DNA of 64,000 bases, taken from Bacteroidota bacterium (GTDB taxonomy: Bacteria > Bacteroidota > Ignavibacteria > Palsa-1295). How positions within the stretch are numbered: position 1 is the stretch's first letter; the number at the start of each line of letters is the position of its first letter. This document shows positions 1,163-5,900 of the stretch, one piece after another. Location of the stretch: positions 310,001 through 374,000 of the forward strand of contig JAJPIO010000018.1 of NCBI GenBank assembly GCA_021324735.1. Direction: 5' to 3'. The translations under genes were made by a program, and so were the position numbers. The notes beneath the pieces are model-generated. The model did not search any database. It saw only the letters and a program-made list of their open reading frames with translations, and was not told the DNA's origin.

Positions 1163-1540
1163 ATGAAGCACTACAATAACACCGAAGAATATCTTGCGAC
1201 ACTTCCAGAAGAGAAGCAGATAATACTTCGGAAGCTTCGCGAAGTGCTCCGTAAAGCGTTGCCAAAGGCGGAAGAAGTTATAAGTTACAGTATGCCGGCG
1301 TTTAAGCAGGGAGGAATTATCTGCTGGTTCGCAGCCGCAAAGAATCACTATGCGATATATGTCTATCCGCGCGTGATGGGCGTCTTCAAAAAAGAACTAA
1401 AAGAATATTCCGGCACAAAGTCAGCGATCCATTTTGCTTATGACAAGCGAATGCCGGTTGGTCTTATCACAAAGATCGCTAAAGAATCTCTCAGGCAGAA
1501 TCTGACGAAGACCGCCCTCAAAAGATCAAGCAAAAAATAA
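1163..1540 (+). CDS. DUF1801 (YdhG/YjhX-like) domain protein
   Basis: A 125-residue soluble protein that is nearly all one DUF1801 domain. It opens with a helix of the type EEYLATLPEEKQIILRKLRE, followed by AEEVISYSMPAFK and the strand-rich part HYAIYVYPRVM. These match the family pattern, which resembles frataxin-like or iron-chaperone folds. A lysine-rich tail ends the protein. It follows the DUF4149 gene by 2 bases, so it is likely the second gene of a short operon. The cellular role is not established. Confidence 0.85.
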   Translation: MKHYNNTEEYLATLPEEKQIILRKLREVLRKALPKAEEVISYSMPAFKQGGIICWFAAAKNHYAIYVYPRVMGVFKKELKEYSGTKSAIHFAYDKRMPVGLITKIAKESLRQNLTKTALKRSSKK

Positions 1541-1541
1541 A

Positions 1542-1568
1542 AATCCCTCTTCCAAAGGAAGAGGGATT
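1542..1568 (-). terminator. Intrinsic terminator of the trxB operon
   Basis: A perfect 12-bp stem (AATCCCTCTTCC / GGAAGAGGGATT) with a 3-base loop lies between two convergent genes. Read leftward, it is followed by a long T-rich run complementary to the A-rich 3' end of the DUF1801 gene, so it should terminate the trxB transcript efficiently and may also act on the rightward one. Confidence 0.85.
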
Positions 1569-1591
1569 GGATGAGGACTTCTCCGAATAAA

Positions 1592-2653
1592 TTAAGCTGG
1601 ATGTGGAATCTCTTCCTCCATGATCTCGTCGGTCACGTCATGCGTTGGGACGTAGCCGTAGATCATTGGGTTTGCGGCTAACCAGCGCTCCGCGTCGATA
1701 GCGGCGACACAACCGGTGCCTGCAGCAGTCACAGCCTGGCGGTATACGTGGTCCTGGCAATCGCCGCACGCGAAGACGCCTGGGATATTCGTGAATGAGG
1801 TCTTGCCTTTTGTCTCGATATATCCAAGCTCGTTCATATCGATAAGGCCGCGGAAAAGCTCTGTATTAGGTGCGTGGCCGATAGCAACAAAGATACCATT
1901 GGTTGCAACCTCCTCCGTCTTCCCTGTAACGGTATTGCGAAGAATAGCACCCGTTACCGTCTTGCGTCCCTTCTCGTCCGTAACGCCCAGTACCTCCGTG
2001 ATCTCCTGATTCGTGCGCCATTTTATTTTCGGGTTCTCGCGAGCGCGTTCGAGCATGATCTTCGATGCCCTAAAATCTTCTCGGCGATGGACGATGGTCA
2101 CCGAACTGCAAAAGCGCGTCAAGTAGTTAGCTTCTTCCATTGCTGTATCGCCACCGCCGACGATAAGAACATCCTGATTGCGGAAGAAGAAACCGTCGCA
2201 AGTCGCACAAGCGCTAACACCGTACCCCATATATAACTGCTCCGATGGAATGTTGAGCAACTTCGCTCTCGCACCGGTTGAAATAATGAGGGCTTCCGTG
2301 TAATACACTTTTTCTCCAGCCGTCAGCTTGAATGGTCGCTGTGAGAGATCGACCGCAGAGATCGTCTCGAATTTCGAGACCGCACCGAAGCGCTGCGCTT
2401 GTTTACGCAGGACCTCCATCAACTCCGGCCCCTGAATACCGTGCTCGAAGCCCGGATAGTTCTCGACTTCGGTTGTGATGGTAAGCTGACCTCCTGGTTG
2501 ATCCCCTTCAAAGACGATCGGGCTAAGGTTCGCACGAGCCGTATAAAGTGCAGCGGTAAACCCAGCAGGACCAGAGCCCAGTACGATCACTTGATGAACT
2601 TCATGACGCTTAAGATGCGTCCGATGTGGTTTAGATTTCGATTGCATAGTCAT
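1592..2653 (-). CDS. trxB: Thioredoxin-disulfide reductase
   Basis: NADPH-dependent FAD flavoenzyme that reduces thioredoxin in the cytoplasm. The FAD-binding GSGPAG is at residues 26-31, the redox-active CATC at 149-152, the NADPH-binding GGGDTA at 166-171, and the second FAD motif [18 protein letters not shown] lies near the C terminus. The length of 353 is slightly above the usual ~310-320 because of a basic N-terminal extension of about 18 residues and an acidic C-terminal tail. It follows queG by 22 bases and is the last gene before a strong terminator. Confidence 0.97.
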
Positions 2654-2675: not shown

Positions 2676-3626
2676 TTATTGATCTTTACGTTTCATGGCC
2701 TTCACATTGCGTTTCAGCCCTGCTAACTTTGTCCGTTTTACGGGCGATTTGCGAAAACGTTTTGAAAACTCTTCCTGCTCCATCTGCTCGATCGTCTCGG
2801 GTGTTAAGCTCAAGTTTTCAGGGCGGGGCGAGAACTCCGGTATAGCAGTCGGCTCCGCAAACCGGTTCCACGGGCACACTTCCTGGCAAATATCGCAACC
2901 ATAGACCCAGCCGGATAATTTATCAGCCAGATCTTCCGGTATCTCGTGTTGCGGCTTTAACTCGATCGTCAAATATGCAATGCAGCGCCTCGCGTCGATC
3001 TCATATGGTTTCAATGCATCCGTCGGGCATGCATCGATACAGCGGGTACATGTCCCACACATATCTCCTGCTGGTGCATCCGGCTCAAGATCGATATTGA
3101 GAATGATCTCCGAAAGAAATACCCACGAGCCTTTCTCTCGTGTAATAAGATTAGTATGCTTTCCCCTCCAACCGACACCGGCGCGTTCGGCGATCGCTTT
3201 TTCGAGTAGCGGACCAGTATCCGAGTAGTATCTTCCTTCGGCACCTGGTACCAAAGCCTTTATCTCGCCCAATAAGCGCGCAAGCATCGGTGGTATCACC
3301 TCATGATAATCCATGCCCTGCGCATAACGAGAGACTTTTAAGCCGTCCTTAGAGGCAGCGTCGATCTCTCGCCGCTCCTCATCGTTATAATAATTAAGCG
3401 CAAGTGAAAGGATGCTCTTGGCGTCTGGAAGAATATTTCGCACATCACGGCGCTTTTCGTGGTCGCGCTCGAGCCAACTCATCATTCCGTGTGCACCACC
3501 GGAAACCCAGGCGTTAAAACGGTCCGCCGCTTCATCAAAAGGCTCAGCACTCGTTACACCGGCTTTCGTAAAGCCGATATCGAGGGCCATTTGCTTGATC
3601 TTTCCTGTGATCTCCGGGCGTGTCAT
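2676..3626 (-). CDS. queG: Epoxyqueuosine reductase QueG
   Basis: Cobalamin- and Fe-S-dependent enzyme performing the last step of queuosine tRNA modification, epoxyqueuosine to queuosine. Cys190, 193, 196 and 200 form the first ferredoxin cluster motif ([12 protein letters not shown]), and Cys244, 247 and 251 with Cys215 supply the second. The SDTGP motif with the family's catalytic Asp is at 135-139. At 316 residues it is the short form, without the C-terminal HEAT extension of some homologues. It sits between a Rieske gene and trxB on one strand, so it may share their transcript. Confidence 0.95.
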
Positions 3627-3721
3627 TGCAACCCATTATAACATAGGGAATGAGCAAATTCGGCCCCGAAAAATTCATAATGAGACAAGGACAAATTCCC
3701 TTACTCGAATGTCAACTTCCC

Positions 3722-4922: not shown

Positions 4923-5119
4923 TATAGTAAAAAGCTTATATTGGGATTCGAGCGGTATTTCTGCTTGTAAAAACAAGCAGCCAATGCGCACACGAGTCTC
5001 GTGTTTTCCGAAGTGTCACTCACGGGGACAAACATTGTGCCGCGATTCTTACAATATGATTACAGCTTAGCCATTTTTTTTCTCAAGCTCTGGCATAAAA
5101 ATCATCGCTATGCGAGAGC

Positions 5120-5842
5120 ATGGAAGGTCCTTCCCTTGTCATACTGCGCCAGGAGATGAAGCCATTTATTGGTAAGCCAATCATACTTGCCGAAGGTAAT
5201 TGGAGTGGCGATGCCAGCCAGTTTACCGGCCAAACGATTCGTTGGATAAAAACGTGGGGCAAACACTTCATCATGCGTATCGGCAAGGTCACGATCCGGA
5301 CACATTTTCTTTTGTGGGGAAGCTACCGCATCAATAACCGCAAAGACCGCCGCGCGACGCTCTCACTCGAATTTGAAAATGGCGACGTGCATTTTTACTC
5401 TTCCTCTATCAAAACACTCGACCAGCCATTAGAAGAATTATACGATTGGCGAGTGGATGTCATGTCGCGTAAGTGGGATGCCAAATACGTTCGATCCCTT
5501 GTTCGTAAACAGCCGAACAGTTATCTCGCAGATGTCCTCCTTGACCAGAACCTCTTTGCCGGGGTTGGCAACATTATTAAAAACGAGGTACTGTTTCGAT
5601 TAAAGTTCAATCCCCTACTGCGAGTTAAGGACCTGAAACCAAAACAGATCGCTGCACTGGTAGACGAGGCGCACAATTATTCACACCAATTTTATAGATG
5701 GAAAAAGCGATATGTGCTTAAAAAGCATTATCGCATATATCACAAAGGCACATGCCCCGTGTGTGGCAGTAAGCTACGAGCAGAGAAACTCGGTAAGCGC
5801 GATAGATATACGTTCTGGTGTCCCGTGTGCCAAGCAATGTAG
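5120..5842 (+). CDS. nei: Nei-like DNA glycosylase lacking the N-terminal proline
   Basis: Fpg/Nei-family base-excision repair enzyme, 240 residues. Core features are present: KTWGKHF (44-50), the helix-two-turn-helix NLFAGVGNIIKNEVLFR, and a C-terminal zinc finger with Cys212, 215, 234 and 237. Relatives begin Met-Pro-Glu-Gly-Pro-Ser, where Pro becomes the catalytic N-terminal amine after Met removal. Here the start reads Met-Glu-Gly-Pro-Ser, as if the proline codon were deleted in frame. The frame is closed by TAA at 5096-5098 with no usable start between, so no alternative start restores it. It may be inactive as a lyase or a specialised variant. Confidence 0.85.
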   Translation: MEGPSLVILRQEMKPFIGKPIILAEGNWSGDASQFTGQTIRWIKTWGKHFIMRIGKVTIRTHFLLWGSYRINNRKDRRATLSLEFENGDVHFYSSSIKTLDQPLEELYDWRVDVMSRKWDAKYVRSLVRKQPNSYLADVLLDQNLFAGVGNIIKNEVLFRLKFNPLLRVKDLKPKQIAALVDEAHNYSHQFYRWKKRYVLKKHYRIYHKGTCPVCGSKLRAEKLGKRDRYTFWCPVCQAM

Positions 5843-5900
5843 AACATGCTTTAGCTTGTTCTATGCAACCTGGTTAGGACAAGCTAAAGCATGTCCTACA
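5839..5900. repeat. 26-bp inverted repeat after the Nei-like gene
   Basis: Two arms, 5839-5864 and roughly 5875-5900, are reverse complements with two mismatches. Each arm (AGAACATGCTTTAGCTTGTT and its relative) is also partly self-palindromic. It lies between two convergent genes and could act as a bidirectional terminator or be a dispersed palindromic element; no other copy was noticed in the window. Confidence 0.6.

Follow-up and report, generated by a model that had tools for sequence, protein, structure and literature searches.

A lineage of Fpg/Nei-superfamily DNA glycosylases in which the initiator methionine probably stands in for the catalytic N-terminal proline

The DNA analyzed here, referred to as the window, is a stretch of 64,000 nucleotides from a Bacteroidota bacterium (assembly GCA_021324735.1, contig JAJPIO010000018.1, positions 310,001 to 374,000 of the forward strand; GTDB lineage Bacteria; Bacteroidota; Ignavibacteria; Palsa-1295). 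An open reading frame (ORF) on the plus strand at positions 5120-5842 encodes a DNA glycosylase of the Fpg/Nei superfamily, 240 residues long, as indicated by the reading frame itself, profile searches and structure matches. Its first codons, ATG GAA GGT CCT TCC, give Met-Glu-Gly-Pro-Ser, and the proline codon that follows the initiator methionine in the large majority of relatives is absent, as the original prediction had pointed out. An in-frame TAA is located upstream at 5096-5098 (+). Of the seven codons that separate this stop from the ATG at 5120 (KSSLCES), none is an ATG, GTG, TTG, CTG or ATH. The ATG at 5120 is therefore the start codon, and a longer or shorter N-terminus is ruled out. 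Another ATG, at 5110, was rejected as a start for the glycosylase: in the window it is out of frame and reaches a stop after 21 codons.

Relatives of the protein were collected from a scan of bacterial genomes, which yielded 80, and from more than 1,700 genomes, some counted repeatedly, most of them from the same phylum. The pooled set of 165 distinct proteins, including that of the window, displays only two N-termini. In line with the claim that relatives usually begin MPEGPS, 154 start with Met-Pro-Glu-Gly-Pro (P-type; start codon ATG in 141 and GTG in 13, with Asp replacing Glu once). Met-Glu-Gly-Pro (M-type; ATG in ten, GTG in one) is found in 11 of the 165, namely the window protein, L001, L002, L003, L015, L016, L032, L078, L112, L117 and L136, so that the alignment of relatives, a check proposed with the original prediction, revealed ten further distinct proteins with this start. 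No third kind of N-terminus occurs among the 165 distinct relatives. Since all starts are either Met-Pro-Glu or Met-Glu, the catalytic acid occupies the second position of the mature protein without exception.

The M-type start recurs in G1102, another genome from the genus of the window, in which the protein L173 is the same as L001 and is 71% identical to the window protein. It is also present in the cultured isolate Pseudochryseolinea flava (L078), where a TAA immediately precedes the ATG. The stop-to-start gap is 0-2 codons in six M-type genes (none in L078, one to two in L015, L112, L136, L016 and L032), making a hidden Pro-bearing start impossible there. For L002, in-frame start candidates exist further upstream, and none of them places a Pro beside the Glu. 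This homologue (positions 3001-3717), 63% identical to the window protein, belongs to a metagenome-assembled genome labelled Myxococcaceae with high G+C content (0.91 at third codon positions, GC3), and may reflect a cross-phylum transfer or a mislabelled assembly.

Mapping the family residues on the alignment (A1) places Met1 (codon 5120-5122, +) in the column of the catalytic Pro1, with Glu2 next to it. Glu2 (5123-5125, +), the catalytic acid of the family by conservation and residue 2 of the mature chain, is invariant in the 11 M-type proteins, while the same column holds 152 Glu and one Asp in the P-type. Lys48 (5261-5263, +), within a W-G-K-H motif, corresponds by alignment to the active-site Lys51 of Nei2 (role described in PMC11323726) and is conserved in 164 of 164 proteins. 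The H2TH domain (PF06831) covers residues 116-185 (5465-5674, +), including the segment GVGNIIKNE with Asn151, and is matched at 46 bits for a cut-off of 34.7. The C4 zinc finger (5753-5833, +) is recognized from its conserved residues Cys212, Cys215, Cys234 and Cys237, Arg229, and the terminal CQ with Gln238; its Pfam score (PF06827, 21.2 bits) is marginally under the cut-off of 21.3, and the Fpg N-terminal domain also scores marginally under its own cut-off. Both the zinc finger and the H2TH domain are thus intact, as originally proposed. Invariant positions in the M-type include Glu2, Gly3, Pro4, Lys48, Asp113, Asn151, Lys154, Glu156, Arg229, Gln238 and the four zinc-finger cysteines.

The AlphaFold2 model of the window protein, generated with alignment A1 as input, has a mean pLDDT (predicted local distance difference test) of 95.8 and a predicted TM-score (pTM) of 0.89. 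The closest solved structure is mouse NEIL3 (Z 29.1, root-mean-square deviation 2.0 Å over 230 residues, 32% identity), and NEIL3 is also the best PDB match by sequence (E 1e-30). It is followed by NEIL2, viral Nei, E. coli Nei, Lactococcus Fpg and mycobacterial Nei2, the Z-scores ranging from 29 to 22 overall for about 225-240 residues. From the aligned residue ranges of the structure comparison, residue 1 of the model pairs with residue 2 of NEIL3, NEIL2 and Nei2 in gene numbering, and with residue 1 of E. coli Nei and Lactococcus Fpg, which are numbered from the Pro. In every structure, the residue paired with model residue 1 is the catalytic N-terminal residue (Val2 in NEIL3, Pro2 in NEIL2, Pro1 in E. 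coli Nei).

The two-lobed fold with H2TH domain, the C4 finger, Glu2 and the active-site Lys are all present, as in the Fpg/Nei superfamily, whereas the N-terminal Pro nucleophile is replaced by another amine-bearing residue 1 at the same place. By its fold and all tested residues except this Pro, the window protein is a real and conserved variant within the superfamily. It lies outside the named subfamilies tested, NEIL3 and Nei2. NEIL3 exposes Val2 by Met removal and carries additional C-terminal RanBP/GRF zinc fingers, while the window protein starts with Met-Glu and has its last residue, 240, just past the C4 finger; the NEI domain of mammalian NEIL3 shares its fold and has a primary amine in place of Pro. 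The Nei2 profile (NF040775, cut-off 400 bits) gives 72.4 bits. Mycobacterium smegmatis Nei2 superimposes with Z 23.8, its Pro2, Glu3 and Lys51 corresponding to Met1, Glu2 and Lys48, but it needs the N-terminal Pro for its apurinic/apyrimidinic (AP) lyase activity. E. coli Nei and Fpg (MutM) share the fold, H2TH domain, C4 zinc finger and catalytic Glu2 but use Pro1 as nucleophile, and their equivalog profiles score 66 bits (cut-off 252) and 64 bits (cut-off 203), respectively. The nearest likeness is to MPEGPS-type Nei-like proteins of Bacteroidota, Burkholderiales and Xanthomonadales, which belong to the same unnamed NEIL3-like subfamily of about 240 residues and mostly show 36-49% full-length identity, with the Glu, Lys, H2TH domain and zinc finger in common. 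These have Pro after Met, in contrast to the Glu that follows Met immediately in the window protein.

With the N-terminal residues left out, a tree of 103 rows spreads the M-type proteins over several groups; the best tree implies four changes of state, and its starred branches force at least two. The approximately unbiased (AU) test of a single M-type clade gives p 0.08, so neither a single nor a multiple origin is established. Tyr192, Ile206 and Tyr207 (codons 5693-5695 and 5735-5740) are present in 9, 10 and 10 of the 11 M-type proteins, respectively, at positions where the P-type has mostly Leu, Ala/Val and His. These three residues, which tend to separate the two types, hint at common ancestry or at co-variation, possibly with the N-terminal change. 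The M-type lineages are old, with branches reaching about one change per column in length, and the Pro-to-Met change is natural, old and common to several bacterial lineages. Nonsynonymous (dN) and synonymous (dS) divergences are 0.11 and 0.86 for the pair L016/L032, and for the window and L001 dN is 0.21 with dS saturated; the M-type genes are, as judged from their substitutions, under purifying selection.

The gene was found in two of the seven genomes searched in the window's genus, and one further copy, of the P-type, among 245 genomes of the class. This sparse occurrence suggests patchy inheritance or horizontal transfer. No relative was confirmed on viral contigs, and plasmid and phage matches were limited to distant Nei/Fpg proteins of about 31% identity or less. 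Within its own genome, the glycosylase gene is the sole match to PF01149 and the sole H2TH match, and no second Fpg/Nei gene that would make it redundant was found there.

The N-terminal Pro is taken to be the defining mark of Fpg/Nei enzymes, NEIL3 with its Val being the stated exception. With a probability of roughly two in three, we consider the window protein to be a working Fpg/Nei-type glycosylase/AP lyase with a NEIL3-like fold, in which the Pro codon was lost and the retained initiator Met provides the catalytic amine. Loss of this codon puts Met1 in the place of Pro1 and leaves both the amine and Glu2 unmoved. The original prediction of a missing catalytic nucleophile is thus right about the Pro, but the absence of any nucleophile does not follow, as the alpha-amine of Met1 takes the place of that of Pro1 and Glu stays residue 2.

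The chemistry of Nei/Fpg enzymes involves attack on C1' by the alpha-amine of residue 1 and protonation of O4' by Glu, with cleavage of the strand following from a Schiff base (PMC11323726, PMC10164570). For the window protein, after translation from the ATG at 5120, a deformylase would free the alpha-amine of Met1, and methionine aminopeptidase (MetAP), by its established specificity, would leave Met1 in place since Glu follows. With its primary alpha-amine positioned where Pro1 has its nitrogen, Met1 would then attack C1' of the damaged nucleotide while Glu2 protonates O4' and Lys48 assists, followed by beta-elimination via a Schiff base, a step that we propose from the family mechanism and the superposition. 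The genome encodes both a peptide deformylase and a type-I MetAP. Deformylase acts first, and MetAP cleaves Met only before a small, non-bulky and uncharged penultimate residue (PMC3154147), in agreement with the earlier expectation that a Met-Glu end is not trimmed. As MetAP spares Met-Glu, the alpha-amine of a retained Met1 is the most likely nucleophile. Precedents exist for a primary amine at this place: the nucleophile of NEIL3 is a Val, for which Met1 must be lost (PMC11323726, PMC5727206), Gly2 was captured in a bond with C1' in P2G hNEIL1, a variant of residual activity, and P2G and P2T variants of Fpg show about 10% activity against one lesion (PMC10164570). A primary alpha-amine is therefore chemically possible, if often weaker. 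Held a little less firmly, but still probable, is the broader proposal that the M-type represents a natural and evolutionarily stable glycosylase lineage in which the alpha-amine of the uncut initiator Met is the covalent catalyst, dependent on deformylation and independent of MetAP.

Several points weigh against catalysis by Met1. In the motif RE-Y/L-x-GHG, the Tyr of the aligned MetAP is replaced by Leu in the MetAP of the genome, so that the specificity of the latter for Met retention is not certain. This Tyr is, we assume, the same as Tyr168 of E. coli MetAP. The Fpg and NEIL1 variants cited above, at about 10% and residual activity, also mean that substitution of the Pro lowers activity in known enzymes (PMC10164570). 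NEIL3 in which Met is kept before Val is inactive, the amine being shifted by one residue there, unlike in the window protein. In the literature, we found no published activity or measured N-terminus of any M-type protein, and nothing relevant on an Fpg/Nei enzyme starting with Met-Glu or on the string MEGPS.

The alternative that survives best, although we regard it as unlikely, is a glycosylase without AP-lyase activity in which the amine nucleophile has been abandoned. Such an enzyme would rely on hydrolysis assisted by Glu2 and Lys48, with the abasic site passed on to an AP endonuclease. The P2A variant of M. smegmatis Nei2 keeps its 5-hydroxyuracil glycosylase activity and psoralen-crosslink repair in vivo while losing AP lyase, and the E3A and K51A variants lose the glycosylase (PMC11323726); no M-type protein deviates at the corresponding Glu2 and Lys48. 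Because Nei2 P2A excises bases without AP lyase, M-type proteins could do the same. However, the amine of Met1 is still at the right place in the model, so that its inactivity would lack an evident cause, and the start codon abuts the Glu codon in 11 of 11 M-type genes, even if a steric cause is also conceivable for an N-terminus within the active site.

Removal of Met1 by a relaxed aminopeptidase, resulting in a Glu1 whose own amine acts or in an inactive enzyme, appears very improbable. The type-I MetAP of the genome (L180, positions 1471-2253, minus strand, adjoining secY) reads RELVGHG and SAHFEHT, compared with REYCGHG and SAQWEHT in the aligned MetAP, and from these motifs it may have a different substrate range. 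The engineered Y168A substitution in E. coli MetAP has been used to increase Met removal (PMC5727206), which lends some support to a relaxed enzyme with Leu at the motif Tyr. Cleavage would nevertheless shift both the amine and the catalytic acid from the positions that all relatives preserve. Slightly less plausible again is a decayed or non-catalytic DNA-binding descendant: the textbook nucleophile is indeed lost, but the ORFs are full-length and under purifying selection, their catalytic residues are invariant, and the type has persisted over deep branches, all of which argues against decay. A sequencing or assembly error, or a wrong start codon, has a negligible probability given that the start recurs in L001/L173, from the same genus, and in another nine distinct proteins, one of them that of the cultured isolate with TAA adjoining the ATG, and the re-sequencing suggested with the original prediction is not needed.

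Around the gene, an out-of-frame ATG is observed 10 nucleotides 5' of the start in both species, within ATGCGAGAGC-ATGG at 5110-5119 of the window and ATGCCCAGGC-ATGG just upstream of position 3001 in L001. The upstream copy in L001 reads ATG CCC and is possibly a relic of a former Met-Pro start. Directly after the glycosylase stop codon lies a perfect inverted repeat, ACATGCTTTAGCTTGT, with 16-nucleotide arms at 5844-5859 and 5879-5894. This repeat (5844-5894, no strand assigned) is perhaps a terminator of the glycosylase gene or a small repeat element; one exact copy and two copies with one mismatch are present elsewhere in the genome, and a 25-nucleotide match to the region is found in inverted orientation 3' of the L001 gene. 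The downstream neighbor in both the window and L001 is glycyl-tRNA synthetase.

The loss of Pro with all else kept suggests that the conserved feature of these enzymes is the place of an N-terminal amine beside Glu2, not the Pro itself. If Met1 is indeed the nucleophile, this would be, to our knowledge, the first natural initiator Met acting as a covalent catalyst in a DNA glycosylase. The occurrence of MPEG and MEG enzymes in one subfamily provides a matched natural comparison for the contribution of the secondary amine to the lyase and glycosylase steps.
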